This document shows, one piece after another, positions 5,853-30,202 of a stretch of DNA of 64,000 nt. Below the pieces are notes generated by a model. The model did not search any database. It was given only the letters and a program-made list of their open reading frames with translations, and was not told the DNA's origin. A program made the translations under genes and the position numbers. How positions within the stretch are numbered: the stretch's first letter is position 1; the number at the start of each line of letters is the position of its first letter. The DNA is from Rugalucina vietnamica. Taxonomy: Eukaryota > Mollusca > Bivalvia > Lucinida > Lucinidae. Location of the stretch: assembly GCA_964017185.1 (NCBI GenBank), contig OZ024877.1:8410006-8474005 (forward strand), read 5' to 3'.

Positions 5853-6062
5853 TCTTGCTCACTCGATCATTTCACCGCTGTGTCTGATGTGGGTTCGAGC
5901 CCCGCTCTGGCCACATGTGAGACAAGCCAAGTTCTGCTTGCGGGTGTGCCAGGTGGTTTTTCTCGGGGGTTCTCCCGTTTTCACCCCACCTATTGATTGG
6001 ACCATCTCATATGAGCTGAAATAATCTTGAAAGGGACGTTTAACTGTCTCAGAAGAAAAAAA
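5853..6062 (+). mobile_element. tRNA-headed SINE, family 1
   Basis: A B-box-like GGGTTCGAGCCCC at about 5891 is followed by a body shared with 15381-15608: GCGGGTGTGCCAGG, TTTTTCTCGGGG, and CATATGAGCTGAAATAATC near the end, then an A-rich tail. The tRNA-like head is partly eroded. Confidence 0.7.
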
Positions 6063-11773: not shown

Positions 11774-14074
11774 TTTAGCTCACCTGAGCCGAAGGCTCAC
11801 AAGGTGAGCTCATAGTATAGTGGTCGAGCCGGCGTCCGTCCATGCGTCCGTCCGTCCGTTCACATTTTCAAATTTGAATATCTCTAAGACAACAAGGTCA
11901 ATCGTGATCAAATTTTATCTAAGGCATCATTGAGGAGTGGGAAAGGTTGTGTTAGGTTTTGGGCCAGGTCGGATCAGAATCCTGGTTTCCATGGCAAAGG
12001 ATAGCTCCCATAGACTTACAATGGGAAAAACATATAAAAATCTTCTTCTCTGAAACCACAAGGCCAAGAGCTTTCATATTTTGTATGTAGCAATGTCTAG
12101 TGGTCCTCTTCATAAATCCTGTCATAGGTGCCCCTGGGGTTCATACGGGCCCTGCCACGGGGGCGTCATGGGGAAAATATAAAAAAAATCTTCTTCTCTG
12201 AAACCACAAGGCCCAGAGCTTTCATATTTTGTATGTAGCAATGTTTAGTGGTCCTCTATATAAATCCTCACAATCATGCCCCTGGGGTCAAAAATAGCCC
12301 CGCCCCGGGGGTCATTTACAATGGGAAAAACATAAAAAAAATCTTCTTCTCCGAAACCACAAGGCCCAAAGCTTTCATATTTTGCCAGTAGCAATGTATA
12401 GTGGTCCTCTTTATGAATCCTGTCAACCGTGCCCCTGGGGTCCATACGGGCCCCGCTCCGGGGGCGTCATGTGAAAACCTTAAAAAATCTTCTTCTCCGA
12501 AACCACAAGACCCAAAGCTTTCATATTTTGTGTGTAGCAATGTATAGTGGTCATCTTTATAAATCCTGCCAACCGTGCCCCTGGGGTCCATACAGGCCCC
12601 GCCCCGGAGGGGTCATGGGTAAAAAATCTTCTTCTCCAAAACCACAAGGCCCAGAGCTTTCATATTTTGTGTGGAGCAATGTATAATGGTCCTCTTTATG
12701 AATCCTGCCAACCGTGACCCTGGGGTTAAAAATGGCCCCGCCTTGGTGGTCTTTAGCTCCCATAGACTTAAAATGGGAAAAACATAAAAAATCTTCTTCT
12801 CCGAAACCACAAGGCCAGGAGCTTTCATATTTTGTCAGTAGCAATGTATAGTGGTCCTCTTTTTAAATCCTGCCAACGGTGCCCCTGGGGTTCATACGGG
12901 CCCCGCCCCCGGGGGTGTCATGGGAAAAACATAAAAAAATCTTCTTCTCCAAAACCACAAGGCCCAAAGCTTTCATATTTTGTATGTAGCAATATTTGGT
13001 GATCTTCTATATAAATCCTGCCAATCATGCCCCTGGGGTTAAAAATGGCCCCGCCCTGGGGGTCATTAGCTCCCATAGACTTAAAATGGGAAAAACATAA
13101 AAAAATCTTCTTCTCCGAAACCACAAGGCCAAGAGCTTTCATATTTTGTCAGTAGCAATGTATAGTGGTCCTCTTTTTAAATCCTCCCAACCGTGCCCCT
13201 GGGGTCCATACAGGCCCCGCCCCGGGGGTGTCATGGGAAAAACATAAAAAAATCTTCTTCTCCGTAACCACAAGGCCCAGAGCTTTCATGTTTTGTTTGT
13301 AGCAATGTATAGTGTTCCTCTTTATAAATCTTGCCAACCGTGCCCCTGGGGTTCATACGGGGCCCCACCTTGGGGGCGTCATGGGAAAAAACTTTGAAAA
13401 ATCTTCTACTCCAAAACCACAAGTAAAGGCCCAATTCTTTCATATTTTGTTTTTAGCAATGTATAGTGGTCCTCTTTATAAATTCTGCCAACTGTGCCCC
13501 TGGGGTCCATGCGGGCCCCGCCCCGGGGGCGTCATGGGAAAAAACATTAAAAAAAATCTTCTCAGAAACCATATGGCCCAGAGCTTTCATATGTTGTGTG
13601 GACCAATGTATAATACTCTCCTTTATAAAGGCTGCCAACGGTGCCCCTTGGGTCCATACAGGCCACGCGCCAGGCATGTCTTTATCTACCATAGACGTAT
13701 AATGGAAATATATGAAAAAAAAATCTTCTCTGCAACAACATGACACAAAGCTTGTATATTTGATATACAACATTGTCATGTGAAGCTCTACATAAATCCT
13801 GCCAATCTTGCCCCTGGGGTAAAATATGGCCCCACCCCGGGGGGTCATTAGAGGACTCTGACCTTGTTAGATGATTTTTTCAAGTGAACCAAAATTGCAG
13901 AAAAGAGGATACACAATCCAGACAAGAGCTCTTCTGCTGATGTAAGTAGGGTTTCAAGGTCACATGATGAAGATGGCCACCATACCCATATATGGTAAAA
14001 ACCCCTATTACTTTGTCCAGTGACTGTACTTGTTGACTCTCAGGTGAGCGATCGTTGCCCCTGGGCTACTTGTT
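11774..14074 (+). mobile_element. AGCTCACCTGAG element with minisatellite core
   Basis: Begins TTTTAGCTCACCTGAGCC and closes with CTCAGGTGAGCG plus a short tail, so the termini contain an inverted CTCACCTGAG word. It interrupts PLE tail sequence, which resumes at about 14075 (ACTGATCGTTCC). The interior from about 12000 to 13860 is a tandem array. No protein is supported; the many open frames are repeat translations. Confidence 0.65.
12000..13860. repeat. ~150-bp minisatellite, about 12 units
   Basis: The words ATCTTCTTCTC, ACCACAAGGCC, AGCTTTCATATTTTG, AGTGGTCCTC and GTGCCCCTGGGG recur about every 139-170 bp. Units alternate loosely between a shorter form (GGGGGCGTCATGGGAAAA) and a longer one carrying TAGCTCCCATAGACTTAAAATGGG. 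Confidence 0.85.
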
Positions 14075-14738
14075 ATAATACTGATCGTTCCAAGGTTATT
14101 TTGTTTTATGTTTTGGTGTTTTAATTTTTTGCGCTGTTGGCGCCTTATGTATGTTATCATATTTTTAGTAAAGTTTAGGTAAGTGAGTGGCCTCCTCTCG
14201 GGAAAAGAGCTGCTCATTCAGCTTACGAAATGTATTCATGGTTTAAGTACCTTATTGTTAGTTTGGTTTTTTTCCCGCCTCGGTTTTTGGAGTGGGAATC
14301 TTTTTCTGATTGTGCCTTTTCCTGATCGTTGCCTACTTGTACCTTTTTATTTTTATTTGCTATTACTGCAGCGGGCTTGTGCCGTGTGGTGGCCCCCTAA
14401 AACGTCTCCCCGTACATCATCTATAGTGCAGATTATATTTTCCTTTTGATCCTTTGAGGTCAGCGAGGGTATTCTGAGAAATCAGAAAATTATTATCGGT
14501 TTAGATCCCTTTTTTAACTAACGTTAAACATATTTGGCCCCATTTGGATTATAATGGTCTTTGTATCGACTATCCTATCGAAAGTTGCAAAATTACAGTT
14601 ATTCTCTTTGGCTCCATGTTGTAAAATCTATAGGGTCACTGAAGAGGCTTAAGTAGCCAAGACCGCGGTATGGCCCATCCCCTTTCTCATTAATACGTTC
14701 ACTGCTCTTAAAGTATATCAGTTTTATCTTTGCTATTA
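14075..14738 (+). mobile_element. PLE 3' tail followed by 5' repeat unit
   Basis: PLE tail (GCGCTGTTGGCGCC, GGAGTGGGAATC, CCTACTTGTACC) runs directly into the PLE 5' repeat unit (ATTACTGCAG, CGTACATCAT, TATCGACTATCC, CCGCGGTATGGCC). It is cut at TATTA (14734-14738) by the 7.2-kb element and resumes at 21953. Confidence 0.8.
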
Positions 14739-15180
14739 GACATTTTTCACTTTTGAACGTAAATGCTGCTGGCGCTTGCGGTTACGACTTTATGTGTGAT
14801 GGGCGACGACTCGTGAGGGCATATTTGACACGAAGGCGAGGGGCGATATGAAGAATTACTTAGTCAAAACTACCAACAGCCCACCGGAGGTGTATTAAAT
14901 GAGACACGCAAAAAACGAAATTGTCCAAGACGCCTAGCTGAATAGTTCAGTAGGTAGAGAGTAAGACATAGAATCGAAAGGTCCTGGGTTCGAGTCCGGG
15001 TAGGACAAAAATTATTTTCCCTTTTCTTTGTTTCTTCCTTTTTCGCAACTGTGACTTTAAAGCTTAAAAAATTAAAAAGAAATAAAAAAAAAAAGGAAAA
15101 AAGAAAATAAAATTCTATCTTTTGGCAAATGCAAGAATCACAAAATGCAATGCTGCATTTAATACTAAAATCGTAAGTTT
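14739..15180 (+). repeat. Left terminal inverted repeat of the 7.2-kb element
   Basis: Matches the reverse complement of about 21545-21952 over its length at roughly 80% by eye. Landmarks: GACTCGTGAGGGCATATTTG, GATATGAAGAATTACTTAG, and TTGGCAAATGCAAGAATCA near the inner end. Confidence 0.75.
14928..15006 (+). ncRNA. tRNA-like sequence in left TIR
   Basis: A-box-like TAGTTCAGTAGGTAGAG and B-box GGGTTCGAGTCC are correctly ordered, followed by GGTAGGAC. An anticodon-like loop CATAGAA is present, but position 33 is A rather than T and the acceptor/D region is too long, so this is not a functional tRNA. Its partner lies in the right TIR. Confidence 0.55.
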
Positions 15181-15380
15181 CTGGATTAAACTGTCTAGTG
15201 AGAAGGCAGACCGCATGTATAGGTTTTTTTATAGGTCTTGTTGGAAGCCGAGATATTGATCGTCATTAGAAGAACGGATCAGCGACCGATCCTAACGTCA
15301 ACATTTATTTCCTGACTGGCTGGTACAGATAATGTGGATAGGATAAGCTGACCGCCTCTAATGACTAAAAAAATACGCAA

Positions 15381-15608
15381 GCGTCCCCCGTGGCCGAGCA
15401 GTTCAGAGCGCTGTTTCATAATCACTTAATCATCTCACCGTTGTGTCTGGTGTGAGTTCGAGACCCACAATGGCCACATGTGAGACAGGCCAAGTTCTGT
15501 TTGCGGGTGTGCCAGGCGGTTTTTCTCGGGGTACTCCCGTTTTCGCCCCACCTACTGTTTGGCGCTTTTCATATGAGCTGAAATAATCTTGAAAGGGACG
15601 TAAAACTG
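15381..15608 (+). mobile_element. tRNA-headed SINE, family 1 (most complete copy)
   Basis: A tRNA(Leu/Ser)-like head (GTGGCCGAGCAGTTCAGAG; B box GAGTTCGAGACCC) is followed by the conserved body (CACATGTGAGACAGGCC, GCGGGTGTGCCAGGCGG, CATATGAGCTGAAATAATC, GAAAGGGACGT). Related copies lie at 5853, 5518 (minus) and 16500 (minus). Confidence 0.75.
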
Positions 15609-16499
15609 AATTTTAACAAATACACAAGACACCAAATCAAAAAGTATAGTCACGGTACATGTTCAGATTGTGTATTACGTATTAGATGTAAAACTACAGT
15701 TTCACGTGCTATCTCGTGAGCGAACGATGTTTATTTTGTCGATGTCTCGTTTTGAGTCCATTCGACAGTAGGAAGAGCGATGGGGGCAATACCCTACATG
15801 TAGCTACAATATGCCTAGCCACACAACTGTTTTTGTTAATTGTAGACTTTCAACAGTATTCCTACCATATCGAGTGCGATGGTTACGATGTAGAAAATTA
15901 ATTTGGCAAGACATAAGCTTTCGTTCTGATCCTCATTTATTCTGTGTGATAGTATATGTGTTGTTTCACCTGGTTGAATTCAAATAAATAAATTAAAATC
16001 AAACTAACACAATTATATTATTTTCATGAGTTTCTAAAGTGTTTCCGTAGAGGACGCATAGTGTTTCAGTCGCCCCATAGTTTACTTTTGATGTTCGCCA
16101 TTTTCACATACACGTAGAAGCAATTTTGGACACTACACATTCTGTCAAAGTGCACAAATTATTCATTTGTTTCACAAATAATGGTGTATACAGTCTTCAC
16201 ATTGACACGTGTTTTCTTAAGATTATTGCCTCGTGTATTGTCCCTTTTAACAGAATGGACGCTGGTCTTGTTTGGAAAGAGCTAGTAATTTTGTTTTTTA
16301 TGCCTGTTGTTAAATTGCTTGTGATGTGTTGCACCGCCATGTCTCTCCCGCCTGGTGTCTATGTTAGGATGGGAAATTTAATTGTATAGATTCTTGGTCA
16401 TTCTATTGTTACTTGATTACAGATAAGGGTCTCATTGTGCTCATTTCTGATCATAATGATGCGTTTTTATACAATTTTCGGTCCGTTCAAGATTATTTT
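15609..16499. other. Unassigned interior of the 7.2-kb element
   Basis: Short open frames (for example 16126-16389) have no motifs. Nothing else recognised. Confidence 0.4.
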
Positions 16500-16602
16500 A
16501 GTTCATATGAGACGGGTAAATCAGTAACAGGAGGAAAAGAGGAGAACCCTGAGAAAACGAACTTGCACACCCACAAGCAGAACTTGGTTTTGTGTCACCC
16601 TT
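16500..16602 (-). mobile_element. SINE family 1 fragment
   Basis: Reverse complement shows CCAAGTTCTGCTTGTGGGTGT, a degenerate TTTTCTCAGGGTTCTCC and GTCTCATATGAAC, the same order of landmarks as 15381-15608 but strongly diverged. Confidence 0.5.
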
Positions 16603-17135
16603 GATTGTAAGACTGATCAATTGGGCAGCAACCTAAGGCGAAGAGTTCATTGTCTTGGTGTTGGTAGTTGCCAAAGCGATATTGCTGTGCTGAAAGTTGT
16701 TTTAATCCATTTTATCACATGTTGTGTGATGTTGCATCAATCTTTGTTGTAAGGACTTTGATTGTATCGCAAGCATATACGATGGTGCTGACAATAGACA
16801 ATACCCGAATACACATATTCATGTACAGTATACCACGCAGACATTTCACGTGTCCATTTACCGACCTTTTATAAAAACGTATCGCCATTCATGATTCTAA
16901 TATATATACATGTAACAGGGGAAATTTAATTGTGTTGTGTTTGGCTATTGAAATTTTGTCCTAGGGCCCATCGACAAAACAAAGATCATATCAAGCCGGA
17001 TCAGTTATCAAACCACATTGCAGCTTGGAAAGCCGAACGCAGTTGGTGTTAAGGGCATGCGTTCTTTTGTCCTTTTTTAACATTTAAAAGTACGATTTCT
17101 ATCATGATAAAGTTTATACTGAACCTATTAAGCAA
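16603..17135. other. Unassigned stretch
   Basis: No gene or repeat recognised. Confidence 0.4.
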
Positions 17136-17340
17136 GCCTCTATGGTGCAGTGCTTATTTCACGTGCCTTATAAACCAGAGATGGCAGGTTTGATCCGGGT
17201 CTTCTTGAGTCTGTCGGATGAGACTATAAACTGAGGTCTCGTTTCCATATGACCTTTGCTGTTGGATTAACGCTCAAATCAACAAACCGATTCAATTTAT
17301 TATTTATTTAAATTCAGATTGAGTAAGAAGCTTATGTGCT
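17136..17340 (+). mobile_element. tRNA-headed SINE, family 2
   Basis: An A-box-like TATGGTGCAGTGCTTA and a B-box-like GGTTTGATCCGGG lie about 45 bp apart. They are followed by GATGAGACTATAAACTGAGG and an AT-rich tail. Only one copy is seen here. Confidence 0.45.
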
Positions 17341-17473
17341 TATATGCTTGCCCGATTCCGGACGCAAAGATGGGTCCGAATGAGTAAGGTTGAGAATGAT
17401 CAAATGTTGCAGATCTGCCGTCAGCATGTGTAATACATGTGCACTAAAACGGTACCCTATATCATGACGATAT

Positions 17474-18520
17474 CATTACAAAACCTTATCAAGCAAAATA
17501 CAGTGTTTTTTCTTTTTTTAAGTTGAAAAAAAAAATGAAAATTTTCAATTCAACAGTTTTGATATTTTCTTATTTGTTCAAAACATAGATTGTGGATACA
17601 AGATAGAACGAATACTCACAATCTATGTTTTCAGAAGCATAGACAACCTAAGTTGACCTTGTCTTATAATAGGTTAATGTAATCCCTGGGTCATATATAG
17701 ACTTTGTAGATGCTTCATGCCAAGTTTCAAAATCATAGGCCTTTTGGTTCTGAAGAAGAACAATTTTAAAGGTTTTTCAATTTATAGCCATGGCGGCCAT
17801 TTTGGTCAAGTTACCTTGACCATTAATACAAACTTTCGTTCCCCTTCCACGAAGTTTGGCTTTGATCGGCCATGCGGTTGCAGAGAAGATGTTTAAATAT
17901 TAAAGTCATATACATGTATATATCCCCCCAGGCAGGAGCTGACAACCACCCGGGTCTTAATGTTTTCATAAAAATAAATCTGCCCATTTGTATTATCATA
18001 GCAAGTTTCCACCCATTTAATTACATTTAACTAATTTCCCCATTTAAATGCATGGGCGACCTACATGTAAGTTGATCTTACCGTAAAATAGGTCAAGGTC
18101 ATCCCAGCGAAATGATTTATACAAACTTTGTAGTGCTTTTAATATTGTTTGATGCTTCATGCCAAGTTACAAAATCATAGGCCTTCTGGTTCTGGAGAAG
18201 AAACATTTTAACGGTTTTTGCTATTTATAGCCAAGGCGGCCATCTTGGTCATGTGACCTGGTCCATTTATGCAAATTTCGTTCCCCCTTCCTAAGAATGC
18301 TCCGCAAACAGTTTTAACTTTGATTGGCCTAGCTGTTTCAGAGAACAAGATCATGGTAATTGTTGACAGACGACGACGGACGGACGACGGGGCATGGCCA
18401 TCCTATAAGCTCACCGGGCTCATGTGAGCTAAAACTAGATATACCCCTGCATACTCAAGTTTTGCTTTATAAAAGCGTTGTTCAATGGGGTAAACATGTC
18501 ACGGACATGTTATCCTGATG
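17474..18520 (+). mobile_element. Hairpin MITE copy split by another element
   Basis: The left part (17474 to about 17632) has the degraded CATTACAAAAC end and a shortened central palindrome. The right part (about 18435-18520) has ATACCCCTGCAT, TATAAAAGCG and the CACGGACATGTTATCCTGATG end. Between them lies an AGCTCAC-type element. Confidence 0.6.
17640..18434 (-). mobile_element. AGCTCAC-type element, copy 2
   Basis: On the minus strand it starts TTTTAGCTCACATGAGCC, followed by GGTGAGCTTATAGG and a CGTCCGTCCGTCGTCGTC word, the same beginning as 11774. The interior has two diverged repeats of a segment containing GCATGAAGCATC, CCTATGATTTTG and GGCCGCC. Confidence 0.6.
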
Positions 18521-19028
18521 AGGATAACAGACCATGCTCGATATTACTTAAAATGTGTCAAAACGTTGTAAGGCGTAGAATAAAAAAAAACTGCACATAA
18601 AATTAAAGATCAACTAAATGTTTCAAATCGTAAATCTTGCCATGTTTACATGTAAAAGGAATTCTGTGTGTTCACGAAAAACATGTGAAATGTAGCTCAA
18701 CAGAACCAATGTACGTATATACATGCACCAGTATGTTGAAAGTCACATGGCGATAACAAATGGATGATAGTTGTTTTCCCACCAACAGTTATCGTCATAT
18801 GCAGACGGGATCTCGGTTTATAGTGTCACCATAAAGCCATGGGCAGCTCAGAATTGAACAAGCGATCCCTAGTTATACACACGAGTGTCAAAAAATAATA
18901 TTCTGCACTGGAAGCTGTTTTATTCGCGCCAAGCATTTGTAAGGCCGACTCGCGTTGAACGCGTAATGTATCTTTAATGGCAATCATGACAGTTGATGAT
19001 GCGATTTTGTAAACATGTCGTGTCAAAA
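18521..19028. other. Unassigned stretch
   Basis: No supported gene or repeat; small minus-strand frames only. Confidence 0.35.
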
Positions 19029-20255
19029 GGTACAAGTAGGCAAAGATCAGGAAAAGGCGCAATCAGAAAAAGATTCCCACTCCAAAAACCGAGGTGGGAA
19101 AAAACCAAACTAACAATCAGGTACTTATACCATGAAACATATCGTAAGCCGAATGAGCAGCTATTTTCCCAATAGGTGGCCACTCAGTTACCTTAACTTA
19201 ACTAAAAATATGAAAACATACATAAGGCGCCAACAGCACAAAAAATTTTAAACACCAAGACATAAAACAAAAAGAACCACTACAGAAGTATCGACTTGGA
19301 ACGATCAGTAACACAAAGTTACTGGCGGGCTTAAACCGGTTTTACAGGTACCTAACCTCACCCTCAGCTTCTGCAGTGGTTCACAACATTTAGTTAGTTC
19401 TTCGGTCCTCGTGGTGAATCTCTAACTAGTCAATGAATCATCAAGAACAAACAAATAAATCATGATAAACATCCCGATGAATCAAAAACCAGGACTCACA
19501 GATTGAGTAAGCTGCCCGACGATGGAGATCCCTGGGCGCCGAATAACCTACTAACTCCGGAGCAAAAGAAAAACACCAGTTGGACCCCGGTGGGCCAAGC
19601 AACAGACAAGAAGCTCCGGCCCCAACCAACTAAAATGAATAGCTTTAAGTCGGGGCCATCATAGAGTCTGACGCCCGACCCACCGGCGTGCAATTAAAGA
19701 AGGCAGCATAGTTATCAACCATGATTGGGTTAAAAACTAAGCATGCAGACTGTCGCATAACATTCAAGTTATAACCTATACGTCTGTAACGTGATATGAT
19801 TTTTCCGAACTGAAGAGAAAAATCATTTATTCCTTTAAGTTTCTTTAATTTGTAAACCAAGTCACCATAAAATTCAGGTTCCGAAAGGCCCTCACTTAAA
19901 AGTGTCTTTAACCCAACATTATATTTGGAAATCAATTCATAGTGTCTACGATAAAATTTAGAAAAGGTTTTTCGAAGTTTATGATACCGATAGCCCTGTT
20001 GGAGAAGTTTTGCCGTTAAACATTTATTTCGAGCGTTGAAGTCTGTAACATGATTGCAGACTCTAGCAAACCTAATAAGTTGCGAAATGTATACACCATA
20101 AGAAGCACGACGAGGAACGTCACCATCCAAAAAAGGAAAATTTACTATATCAAAATCAAAGTCATCGCGCTTATCATAAATTTTAGAAGAAACAAATCCA
20201 TTTGCAACAGAAAGATGTAGATCTAAAAAGGCGGCTTCGGTATCTGAGATATTAG
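19029..20255 (-). pseudogene. Penelope-like element fragment (minus strand)
   Basis: 5'-truncated PLE on the minus strand. It holds the C-terminal third of the protein (from about SDTEAAFLDLHL to the stop at 19645, reading VGRASDSMMAPT at the end) plus the whole 3' tail ending CCTACTTGTACC at 19029. The remaining frame is open and close to the 27919 copy, so it is a recent 5'-truncated insertion. It lies inside the 7.2-kb element. Confidence 0.85.
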
Positions 20256-20424
20256 ATAGGCCACTTCTGGTTCATTGTTCAATTAGAATCAGACAGTTAA
20301 ACGGGAAGACAACAATAATCATTGTTACCATTGCATATGATAACATTGTTTACGATTTATATGTTTAATTGCTGTCTGGATTTCTTTATTTTTGCATTTT
20401 ACCAATGCATATAGGTTTTAAGTT

Positions 20425-20630
20425 TTTATTTATTTTATTTTTTTTTTGTTTTGTCCCAGTCAACATTTTTTTCAGTCATGTCGGGACGGAGCCAACGCTT
20501 CCTGGGTTTAACCAGTTAGTAAGGAGTTAATGTGTCTTGCTCAAGGACACAACACGGCTGGTGCCTGTGGGGATCGAACCCAGGACCTCTCAGGAGTCAG
20601 ACGCCCTACCACTACGCCACCGCGCTCCCT
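20425..20630 (-). mobile_element. tRNA(Arg)-like-headed SINE, family 3, copy 1
   Basis: On the minus strand: GGTGGCGTAGTGGTAGGGCG (A box), CTCCTGA loop, GGGTTCGATCCCC (B box), then GTGTTGTGTCCTTGAGCAAG, GGAAGCGTTGGCTCC and a T/A-rich end. Other copies: 42345 and 51888. Confidence 0.75.
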
Positions 20631-20739
20631 AATAATTTTGTACCAGTCTTATATCAACTACATGTACGTATTTATTCTCGACATGTGATTTTACAAAGCG
20701 ACTGACTGAACCACTGCGACATGAAGTCATCTACGGAAC

Positions 20740-20780
20740 TTGCGTGCGTGCGTGCGTGCGTGCGTGTGTGTGTGTGTGCT
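20740..20780. repeat. (TGCG)n/(TG)n microsatellite
   Basis: Uninterrupted TGCG tetramers run into TG dinucleotides. Confidence 0.9.
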
Positions 20781-21544
20781 CGCATAAAGAATATTGTCGT
20801 CCTGTTTTAGGGTAAGCAAGATACGTTATGAAAAAACGAACTGTATGTTTCTCAGTCTATAAACATTCATTTTCTTGAAAATGATACTGTTTTAGTTTGA
20901 AGTTTAATTATACTCGTATTTATTTGAATTCACCCAGATAAACAACACGCATAGTTCAAGAGAATAAAGGAGGATCAGAAAGAAAGCCTTTGACTTGGAA
21001 AAAACATCCCAAAAATCGTAATTATCGCATTCAAAATGCTGAAATACTGTGGAAGGTCTACAAAACCTCAACTTATTTCTATGTCTATGCAAAATGTAGC
21101 TAGGATATCGCACTTATGACTTGCAGATGATTGTCTAATGGACTCAAAACGAAACTCAACCGTATAAATAACATCAAGATTTCGAGTATCTGTTTGAAGT
21201 ACATGTATAAACATGCCAAAATAAATTATGCTCTCTCACGAGACAGCACGTGGAACTGTAGGTCTTACACCTAATAAATATACATATATCTTTACATGTA
21301 CACTATACAGTGTACTGTTTGAGTTAGTGCCTACGTCCGCGGAAAACATTTTTAAGTCGTTCAGGGTGGCTATCCTTATCGTAGCCACATTATGCCTGTA
21401 CAAGCCTTCAGTATATTCATATTTTCATGTCTCCCAGAAAGAAATATTGACTATTGAGGATAGATCAGCTCATACCAAAAATTCGATCGAACTCCCAATA
21501 CAAGAGAAAACATACATGTGGGCTGCCGTCTCAAACTCCAATTC
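20781..21544. other. Unassigned stretch of the 7.2-kb element
   Basis: One open frame (21228-21557) has no motif and runs into the TIR; not supported as a gene. Confidence 0.35.
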
Positions 21545-21952
21545 CTTTACGATTTAAGAATTTAATGTAGTAGGGCATTTCATGATTCTTGCATTTGCCA
21601 AAAATATAATCAGCTGATAATATATGTTTTATTTCCAAAGCTTTTTTGTCACAAGAGAGACAAATAAAGAAAAGAAAAAAGTGATGCGTCCGGGACTCGA
21701 ACCCAGCACCTTTCGTTTTCAATTCCAAGCACGCTAGCTACTGAGCTACAGAGCTAGACGTCCTACGCTATAGCATTTATTGCATGTCTTATTTAATTCG
21801 TCTTCGTCGGGCTATTGGTAGTTTTGACTAAGTAATTCTTCATATCGTCCCTCGTCTTCGTCTCAAATATGCCCTCACGAGTCGTTCCCCATCACACGGA
21901 AAGTCATAACCGCAAGCGCCAGCAGCAGTTACGTTCAAAAGTGAAAAATGTC
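21545..21952 (-). repeat. Right terminal inverted repeat of the 7.2-kb element
   Basis: Inverted copy of 14739-15180. It contains its own tRNA-like segment on the minus strand (about 21680-21765; A box TGTAGCTCAGTAGCTAGCG, B box GGGTTCGAGTCCC). Confidence 0.75.
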
Positions 21953-22140
21953 TATTACTGCAGCTGGTGTTGTGACGTCGTACATTATCAATAGTGCAGA
22001 TTATATTTTTCTTTTGATCCTTTGAGGTCAGCGAGGGTATTCTGAGAAATCAGAAAATTATTATCGGTTTAGATTCCTTTTTTTAACCAACGTTTTATAT
22101 ATCTGGCCTCATTTGGATTATAATGGTCTTTGGATTATAG
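21953..22140 (+). mobile_element. PLE 5' repeat unit, continued
   Basis: Starts TATTACTGCAGCTGGTG, the direct continuation of the unit interrupted at 14738. A short internal deletion is seen relative to 26230-26280. It runs to GGTCTTTGG before the coding part. Confidence 0.75.
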
Positions 22141-25926: not shown

Positions 25927-26610
25927 TTTGTATCGACTATCATATCGAAGGTTGCAAAATTACAGTTATTCTCTTTGGCTCCATATAGCCAAATCTATAG
26001 GGTCACTGAAGAGGCTAAAGTAGCAGAAACCGCGGTATGGTCCATCCCTTTTCTCATTAATACGTTCACTGCTCTTAAAGGATATAAGTTTTATCTTTAT
26101 TTGCTATTACTGCAGCTGGTGTTGTTCCGTGTGGCGGCCCTAAAAATTTCCCCGTACATCTTTCATAACAAAAATGTTGCCAAATCTATAGGGTCAGTAG
26201 TCGAAAACGCGGTATGGCCTTTCTCATGTAAAATATTACCTCAGCTGGTGTTGTGCCGTGTGGTGGCCCTAAAAAGTCTCCCCGTACATCATCCATAGTG
26301 CAATTTTATATTTTCCTCTTGATCCTTTAAGGTCAGCGAGGGTATTCTGAGGAATCAGAAAATTATTATCGGTTTAGATTCCTTTGTTAACCAACGTTTA
26401 ATATATCTGGCCCCATTTGGGTTATAATGGTCTTTGTATCGACTATCCTATCGAAAGTTGCAAAATTACAGTTTTTCTCTTTGGATCCATGTTGCCAACT
26501 CTATAGGGTCACTGAAGAGGCTTCAGCAGCCGAAACCGCGGTATGGCCCATCCCCTTTCTCATTAATACGTTCACTGCTCTTAAAGGATATCAGTTTTAT
26601 TTTATTTATA
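25927..26610 (+). repeat. Tandem PLE 5' repeat units (pseudo-LTR-like)
   Basis: The unit holding TATCGACTATCC, CCGCGGTATGGCC, TACGTTCACTGCTCTTAAAG and ATTACTGCAGCTGGTG is repeated head to tail. The second pass begins near 26435, and a third partial piece with an internal deletion lies at about 26160-26230. It follows a PLE tail directly and is followed by no PLE coding region. Confidence 0.75.
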
Positions 26611-27918: not shown

Positions 27919-29586
27919 GTGGATAAACGTATTAAGTTTTATTCACAAAATACTAATCTTTTACCTCCTAAACCCAAATCGTCATTTAGGCATTTGAAGC
28001 AGGGTATCCAAGAATTTCATAGAAAGTATGTCTTGGTTCCGGCAGATAAAGCCGCAAACAATGTTGTTGTCGTTTGTAGACTTCACTACGTTAACACCTT
28101 AAAACAGGAGCTTGATGGTACCAGGGCTTATCTGGAGACAGATACTGATGAGGTGTCTGTAGTAAATGCCCACTTAAACGATTTACCTGTTAAGTTTTCT
28201 GTTTGTGTCAATGAAGGCCAAGACAAACTTCCTACGATGTATTGGTTACCTAAGCTTCACAAAAGACCATACAAAGCTAGATTTATTGCAAATTCTAGCT
28301 CTTGTACTACCACTGAACTTTCTAAATTATTAACTTCTTGTCTTACTGCTATCAAATCTCATGTTATAAGATACTGTGAGACAGTGTATGAAACTTCAAA
28401 TAAAAATTGGTTTTGGTCAATAAAAAATTCTGGTGAGGTGCTCAGTAAATTGAAGTGTAGAGGGTTCCGTGCGACAAGCTTGTCCACATATGATTTTTCT
28501 ACTCTGTATACAACATTACCACATAATCTAATTAAAGAAAAACTTCTGGATTTGATAGAGTGGACCTTCAAAAGGGCATTAAAAAACTATGGTTCACTTT
28601 ATTTGGCATGTAATGACAGAAAGGCTTTTTTCACTTCCTCTGACCAAAGTCGGTATACCCTTTGGTCATGTCAGAATGTGTGCGACGCCTTATCCTATCT
28701 CCTTGATAATATTTATATTAGATTTGGGACCAAGTTATACAGACAAATTGTTGGAATTCCGATGGGTACAAATTGCGCACCTCTCGTAGCTGATTTATTT
28801 TTATACTGCTACGAAAGAGATTTCATGGATTCTCTTAACCATGATAATCAAGCTGATGTTATCGAGGCTTTTAATTCCACATCTAGGTACCTCGATGACC
28901 TTTTGAACATTGACAACCCTTATTTTGAAGGTATGGTCAATCAAATTTATCCACCTGAACTTCAGTTGAACAAAGCTAATATCTCAGATACCGAAGCCCC
29001 CTTTTTAGATCTACATCTTTCTGTTGCAAATGGATTTGTTTCTTCTAAAATTTATGATAAGCGCGATGACTTTGATTTTGATATAGTAAATTTTCCTTTT
29101 TTGGATGGTGACGTTCCTCGTTGTGCTTCTTATGGTGTATACATTTCGCAACTTATTAGGTTTGCTAGAGTCTGCAATCATGTTACAGACTTCAACGCTC
29201 GAAATAAATGTTTAACGGCAAAACTTCTCCAACAGGGCTATCGGTATCATAAACTTCGAAAAACCTTTTCTAAATTTTATCGTAGACACTATGAATTGAT
29301 TTCCAAATATAATGTTGGGTTAAAGACACTTTTAAGTGAGGGCCTTTCGGAACCTGAATTTTATGGTGACTTGGTTTACAAATTAAAGAAACTTAAAGGA
29401 ATAAATGATTTTTCTCTTCAAATCGGAAAAATCATATCACGTTACAGACGTATAGGTTATAACTTGAATGTTATGCGACAGTCTGCATGCTTAGTTTTTA
29501 ACCCAATCATGGTTGATAACTATGCTGCCTTCTTTAATTGCACGCCGGTGGGTCGGGCGTCAGACTCTATGATGGCCCCGACTTAA
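27919..29586 (+). CDS. Penelope-like reverse transcriptase
   Basis: 555 codons with no internal stop. RT motifs in order: VPADKAANNVVVV (28036-28074, DKA where many PLEs have DKG), YWLPKLHKRPYKARF, STYDFSTLYTTLPH, GIPMGTNCAPLVADL (GIPMG at 28753-28767) and the catalytic YLDD at 28888-28899. A thumb-like region rich in Tyr/Lys follows and ends VGRASDSMMAPT. The LPKLHK / YLDD pattern is that of Penelope-like RTs. No GIY-YIG endonuclease is visible at either end. The first codon is GTG inside a frame open from 27853; an upstream segment in another frame (27740-27917) may be its N-terminus after a frameshift near 27915. Confidence 0.9.
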   Translation: MDKRIKFYSQNTNLLPPKPKSSFRHLKQGIQEFHRKYVLVPADKAANNVVVVCRLHYVNTLKQELDGTRAYLETDTDEVSVVNAHLNDLPVKFSVCVNEGQDKLPTMYWLPKLHKRPYKARFIANSSSCTTTELSKLLTSCLTAIKSHVIRYCETVYETSNKNWFWSIKNSGEVLSKLKCRGFRATSLSTYDFSTLYTTLPHNLIKEKLLDLIEWTFKRALKNYGSLYLACNDRKAFFTSSDQSRYTLWSCQNVCDALSYLLDNIYIRFGTKLYRQIVGIPMGTNCAPLVADLFLYCYERDFMDSLNHDNQADVIEAFNSTSRYLDDLLNIDNPYFEGMVNQIYPPELQLNKANISDTEAPFLDLHLSVANGFVSSKIYDKRDDFDFDIVNFPFLDGDVPRCASYGVYISQLIRFARVCNHVTDFNARNKCLTAKLLQQGYRYHKLRKTFSKFYRRHYELISKYNVGLKTLLSEGLSEPEFYGDLVYKLKKLKGINDFSLQIGKIISRYRRIGYNLNVMRQSACLVFNPIMVDNYAAFFNCTPVGRASDSMMAPT

Positions 29587-30202
29587 AGCTATTCATTTTA
29601 GTTGGTTGGGGCCGGAGCTTCTTGTCTGTTGCTTGGCCCACCGGGGTCCAACTGGTGTTTTTCTTTTGCTCCGGAGTTAGTAGGTTATTCGGCGCCCAGG
29701 GATCTCCATCGTCGGGCAGCTTACTCAATCTGTGAGTCCTGGTTTTTGATTCATCAGGATGTTAATCATGATTTATTTGTTTGTTCTTGATGATTCATTG
29801 ACTAGTTAGAGATTCACCACGAGGACCGAAGAACTAACTAAATGTTGTGAACCACTGCAGAAGCTGAGGGTGAGGTTAGGTACCTGTAAAACCGGTTTAA
29901 GCCCGCCAGTAACTTTGTGTTACTGATCGTTCCAAGTCGATACTTCTGTAGTGGTTCTTTTTGTTTTATGTCTTGGTGTTTAAAATGTTTTGTGCTGTTG
30001 GCGCCTTATGTATGTTTTTATATTTTTAGTTAAGTTAAGGTAACTGAGTGGCCACCTATTGGGAAAATAGCTGCTCATTCGGCTTACGATATGTTTCATG
30101 GTATAAGTACCTGATTGTTGGTTTGGTTTTTTCCCACCTCGGTTTTTGGAGTGGGAATCTCTTTCTGATTGCGCCTTTTCCTGATCTTTGCCTACTTGTA
30201 CC
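29587..30202 (+). mobile_element. PLE 3' noncoding tail (reference copy)
   Basis: An uninterrupted ~615-bp tail that serves as the empty-site reference for insertions at 11401, 11774 and 24019. Confidence 0.8.

Follow-up and report, generated by a model that had tools for sequence, protein, structure and literature searches.

MITEs measure less than about 0.8 kb, piggyBac and Kolobok elements insert at TTAA, and Sola elements duplicate 4 bp of their target. Excerpts of published accounts assign Galileo to the P superfamily (PMC4168063, PMC4079207), give Ginger elements ends of TGTNR with a duplication of 4 bp, or 5 bp for TDD, and Ginger1 target sites of CCGG or CCGT (PMC2836005), and report duplications of 6 bp for Polinton and 3 bp for Zator (PMC10045372). 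Here we analyse an element from the bivalve Rugalucina vietnamica for which literature listings, the opening parts of abstracts and individual passages gave no description that we recognised, which is not proof that the family is unpublished.

The element lies in a stretch of 64,000 nucleotides (the window), where a 7.2-kb segment (14739–21952) is inserted in a Penelope-like unit between two TATTA words. The initial annotation had read this as an insertion, and the flanks bear it out: TATTA stands on both sides (14734–14738 and 21953–21957), and the joined flanks equal the uninterrupted order GC-TATTA-CTGCAG at 26104 (CTATTACTGCAG) in another Penelope-like unit. The segment starts and ends with inverted copies of GACATTTTTCACTTTTGAACG, as first noted, and its arms share 74% identity over their first 438 bases (E = 2e-75, far above chance). 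The arms had been put at approximately 0.4 kb; their homology actually spans 1.1–1.3 kb (14739–16029 and 20873–21952). The features are as follows.

14734–14738, no strand: left flanking TATTA, target copy 1, read from the window sequence
14739–16029, + strand: left arm, imperfect inverted repeat of approximately 1.3 kb, 97–98% identical in the best-scoring genome places
14943–14997, + strand: tRNA-like A-box (14943–14954) and B-box (14987–14997) in the left arm, by eye against the consensus
15422–15608, no strand: 187-bp dispersed repeat within the left arm, 87% identical to 5859–6046, already in the source element
16030–20872, + strand: interior, non-coding, with older dispersed repeats at 17709–17848 and 18151–18291, 18431–18521, and 20453–20628
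19028–20257, − strand: Penelope-like fragment, a later insertion, 99% identical to 28976–30202, unique to this copy of the seven compared
20873–21952, − strand: right arm, 99–100% identical in the best-scoring genome places
21693–21748, − strand: tRNA-like B-box (21693–21703) and A-box (21737–21748) in the right arm, by eye against the consensus
21953–21957, no strand: right flanking TATTA, the first T of which probably belongs to the element (GTCT), from paralogous empty sites and end pairs
26104–26115, + strand: paralogous empty site in another Penelope-like unit, from flank comparison

Tandem-like repeats approximately 70–84% alike occupy 12002–13527, upstream of the Penelope-like unit into which the element is inserted, and the short dispersed repeat at 18431–18521 recurs in the window at five or more further positions (5114, 5280, 35389, 40789 and 49811). 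Rfam SECIS_1 (39 bits, gathering 35) matches at 29561–29628 on the + strand, where the Penelope-like reverse-transcriptase frame ends, and at 19603–19670 on the − strand, inside the nested Penelope-like fragment. The former overlaps the stop of frame 27919–29586, in which we saw no clear in-frame use of TGA, and may therefore be fortuitous.

We searched the host genome (1.09 Gb, 47 contigs) with left-arm, right-arm and interior probes, which returned 1,858, 1,934 and 1,060 first-look candidates, respectively; these are not copy counts, and the best 40 were scored per probe. The interior-probe figure suggests a family of about a thousand copies. Independent insertion of the arms as single repeats, named beforehand as an outcome that would refute the transposon reading, is not what the complete copies display: in all six (L039–L044; 5,698–6,574 bases) a left arm, the interior and a right arm follow in identical order. 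A further probe, a 257-base end fragment, matched alone at most of its scored places. We examined six such loci; in four (L124–L127) a related longer element follows, so that a stand-alone repeat is rejected there, and the other two (L122 and L123) lie within one local tandem array on contig C17. An array with a unit of the 257-base element end plus approximately 700 bases of flank was seen in L019:1–1500 and L121 (C17:16979500–16983940); its units are 98–99.7% alike and a full element adjoins.

Among 5,505 gap-free columns of the window element and L039–L044, 181 are singletons and a further 18 vary otherwise. The pattern is nearly star-like, with 13–36 private changes per copy (mean 0.47%); since the search reports the best matches, the sample favours close copies. 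Judging by these counts, the family is a recent burst. The element had initially been dated as not very recent from its interior insertions, a view that the other copies do not support: the Penelope piece of 19028–20257 is present in the window copy alone of the seven compared, and the remaining interior repeats fall in stretches common to the compared copies. Neither L039–L044 nor L046 carries an insertion at the place of that piece, which is thus a later arrival in the window copy. A 49-base piece of the Penelope fragment elsewhere in L042, and a 221-base piece approximately 1.9 kb from the end of the element match in L045, are taken as separate events.

The two arms of the window copy grow less alike inward, from 92 of 100 bases at the tip to 80 of 100 in the next block and approximately 70% deeper. 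Across the seven copies each arm averages 98–99.5% identity by segment, as against 74% between left and right, so the asymmetry predates these copies and was present in their source. In both arms, T-runs follow the A-box/B-box pair (again by eye against the consensus). ARAGORN and Rfam found no tRNA in the arms, ruling out a true tRNA gene; the boxes may be relics or the starts of a pol III transcript.

Older copies share the same plan. L046 is approximately 95% identical by substitutions, and L120 (7.1 kb), likewise gene-free, is 80% identical to the window element over 5,527 aligned bases, mostly 77–94% per 100 bases, with two stretches that do not align (about 16139–16338 and 20269–20868); its own arms are approximately 70% alike. 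There is also a second subfamily, with left ends approximately 84–85% like the arms of the window element. Its probe gave 3,230 first-look candidates, some of which may belong to the first subfamily, and one member, L126, is 91% identical to L120 over 1,769 columns. The rest of L126 (L128) holds a 4.6-kb extra insertion (L128:2140–6747) with no stop-free frame over 122 amino acids.

None of these copies offers an obvious gene. The longest stop-free frames reach 144 amino acids in L039–L044, 126 in L046, 107 in L120, 125 in the read parts of L125–L127, 122 in L128, and 130 in the window element outside the Penelope piece. A six-frame Pfam scan of the window element minus that piece, to which an unknown transposase is invisible and which may miss intron-split exons, gave no domain at cut-off; its only hits, PF25823 (E = 0.19) and PF08305 (E = 0.23), fell far below it, and a hidden transposase in this copy is rejected. 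Copy L045 (14.4 kb) was considered as a possible transposase source, but its middle 9.9 kb contains nested repeats, and stop-free frames there do not exceed 123 amino acids. Of the full-length relatives still encoding a transposase that the initial annotation had proposed to seek, the full-length copies exist (L039–L044) and the long frames do not; no autonomous relative or transposase appeared among the copies examined by Pfam (window element) or by stop-free frames. With no transposase domain over cut-off, the earlier judgement that the superfamily cannot be named still stands.

Target preference was read from 102 distinct termini, of which nine were excluded as element–element junctions; a single base defines the left-end class, which contains one or more ends of the second subfamily. 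The 93 remaining flanks read T-W-N-W-A, with A at −1 in all 93, T at −2 in 89, A at −4 in 88 and T at −5 in 85, comprising all 38 right ends and 47 of the 55 left ends. At position −8, A occurs in just one of the 93, which argues that recognition reaches beyond five bases.

Left and right ends could be paired for 39 copies. The flanking 5-mers are equal in 27 pairs, differ at position 1 only in seven and differ at the centre only in five; positions 2, 4 and 5 agree in all 39 and positions 2–5 in 34. In the seven position-1 mismatches the left base is C or A and the right is always T. Paralogous empty relatives of right ends L014, L013, L034, L051 and L020 (83% identity) lack a base corresponding to this T, and those at L001, L009, L019 and L025 have it. 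From the pairs and the empty sites, the right end is probably GTCT, and the duplication is probably 3–4 bp (WNW or WNWA) within a palindromic TANTA target. The 5-bp duplication first proposed fits the window copy (TATTA/TATTA) but not the family, as seven of 39 pairs differ at position 1 and five at the centre.

Single loci add detail. Three copies occupy one identical Penelope site (L013/L116, L084/L115 and L089/L113). Six paralogous sites have G at a position where the left end L089 has A, a difference that alone would favour 3 bp; at L113, the right flank of the same copy, the repeat copy itself differs at that base. The discordant pair L056/L020 has a left flank of TAATATTA, as if extra bases had been carried along. 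Flanks of the pairs L050/L051 and L034/L071 derive from different Penelope-repeat stretches, and the left flank of L071 shows T at a base that one reading of the repeat gives as A. The 39 pairs leave out L046, which has a variant base at its right end and TAATA on both sides, and the old copy L120 (TATTA/TAATA). Element ends were sought and absent from the fetched stretch at L061–L064, L117 and L119, as were six right ends (L096, L097, L105, L107, L108 and L111) and two left ends; of these left ends, the one that pairs with L013 was recovered in L116.

The element also occurs end to end with itself. The joined word TGAAAAATGTC-TWNWA-GACATTTTTCA has 40 places in the genome, and its reversed control none. 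TANTA makes up 0.54% of window positions, and the genome may hold about 6 million such sites, so that random landing of 1,000–4,000 copies would put roughly 0.2–3 next to an end already in place. On this assumption of random landing the observed junctions are in excess; clustering in repeat-rich DNA could add to that excess. Orientations in the places examined are right–right (C12), left–right (C7) and left–left (C17), and in all three the partners differ in age or subfamily. The junctions thus look like later insertions beside an older end rather than tandem dimers.

Taken together, fixed arm order, a sequence-specific palindromic target, a short duplication, an empty site, near-identical copies and the lack of recognisable coding capacity uphold the first reading, in which the segment is a discrete DNA transposon whose inverted ends are long and which carries no recognisable transposase. 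We consider it very probable that the element is a non-autonomous DNA transposon of approximately 6 kb, moved by a transposase encoded elsewhere. We infer mobilisation in trans because the combination of a lack of genes, conserved tips, a sharply defined target and brief duplications is best explained by a trans-acting enzyme. This enzyme, probably a DDE transposase, would bind the conserved outer 100–160 bases and insert the element at T-W-N-W-A, with three or four bases being duplicated. The arms would descend from one old long inverted repeat whose inner parts have drifted apart, selection for mobility would have kept the tips, and the element would frequently land directly beside an end of its own kind.

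Awkward for plain duplication is the central base, which differs in five of the 39 pairs; gene conversion between the ends, or donor letters on a circle, are possible sources. Movement through such a circle, its ends joined by a few donor bases in copy-out-paste-in or site-specific recombination, would leave donor letters in one flank and is an unlikely account of the family. It would fit the central mismatches and the frequent joined ends with a TANTA spacer, and the excerpt of one account describes circles with spacers in other transposons (PMC9587614). However, at right ends L014, L013, L034 and L051 the flank centre is that of the paralogous empty target, even for rare words; the right–right (C12) and left–left (C17) junctions are not given by a circle, and partners of different age are not expected from one.

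Less probable again is an autonomous element whose genes are interrupted by introns or have diverged beyond the reach of Pfam. Some 6 kb of interior is common to the copies, and a 102-amino-acid stop-free frame (16081–16386) recurs in L039–L044, but six frames gave no Pfam domain over cut-off, stop-free frames end at 144 amino acids (L039–L044) and 107 (L120), and L120 has diverged evenly along its alignable interior, with no island of conservation. A decayed Polinton/Maverick-type element would account for inverted ends of approximately 1 kb, but is highly improbable given that there is no 6-bp duplication and no polymerase, integrase or capsid domain or gene. The weakest proposal, two independent repeats inserted nearby in opposite orientation by chance, could draw on the 26% difference between the arms of the window copy and on the end fragments alone in one C17 tandem array, but is refuted by the paired copies, with both arms and the same interior in six of six, duplications matching across the two ends of 27 pairs out of 39, and agreement at positions 2, 4 and 5 in every pair.

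For the non-autonomous transposon, a recent burst together with an old relative of like plan suggests that a gene-free, non-coding lineage may persist and expand over the long term by borrowing its enzyme. Once that transposase is identified, the sharpness of the target word and the tendency of the element to settle next to its own ends open the target rule to direct testing. There is some chance, although not a large one, that the ends belong to a DNA-transposon lineage not yet described. Such a lineage would have a palindromic T-W-N-W-A target and an asymmetric right end (GTCT), would insert strongly next to ends of its own kind, and would have moved a gene-free element of 6–7 kb, its arms carrying a pol III-like promoter, across at least 15–20% sequence divergence.

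Among known systems, piggyBac and Kolobok are set aside by the TWNWA targets in 93 flanks. Sola resembles the element in its 4-bp duplication, with no transposase seen here to compare. Ginger1 and Ginger2 are alike in duplicating 4 bp (5 bp in TDD), and Ginger1 is rejected because the present ends are GAC...GTC(T) and the targets TWNWA, as against TGTNR and CCGG/CCGT in the excerpt of PMC2836005. The likeness to Zator is the 3-bp duplication given in the excerpt of PMC10045372, again with no transposase seen in the element; the Zator transposase profile PF07592 had no genome matches, and neither did its controls (0 of 14). Foldback-type Galileo and Tetris, as presented in excerpts of PMC4168063 and PMC4079207, have similarly long inverted arms, and for the present element we found no link to the P superfamily of Galileo. 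The inverted ends in fixed order (six of six copies), the target duplication and the empty site are those of a TIR DNA transposon. With non-autonomous members of that class, MITEs and longer deletion derivatives, it shares inverted ends, a duplication, an absence of genes and many similar copies. It differs from them in that no coding relative was found and an older copy has the same gene-free plan. Complete copies of 5.7–6.6 kb (L039–L044) exclude a MITE: the element is approximately 6 kb rather than a few hundred bases long, and its arms exceed 1 kb and are asymmetric.
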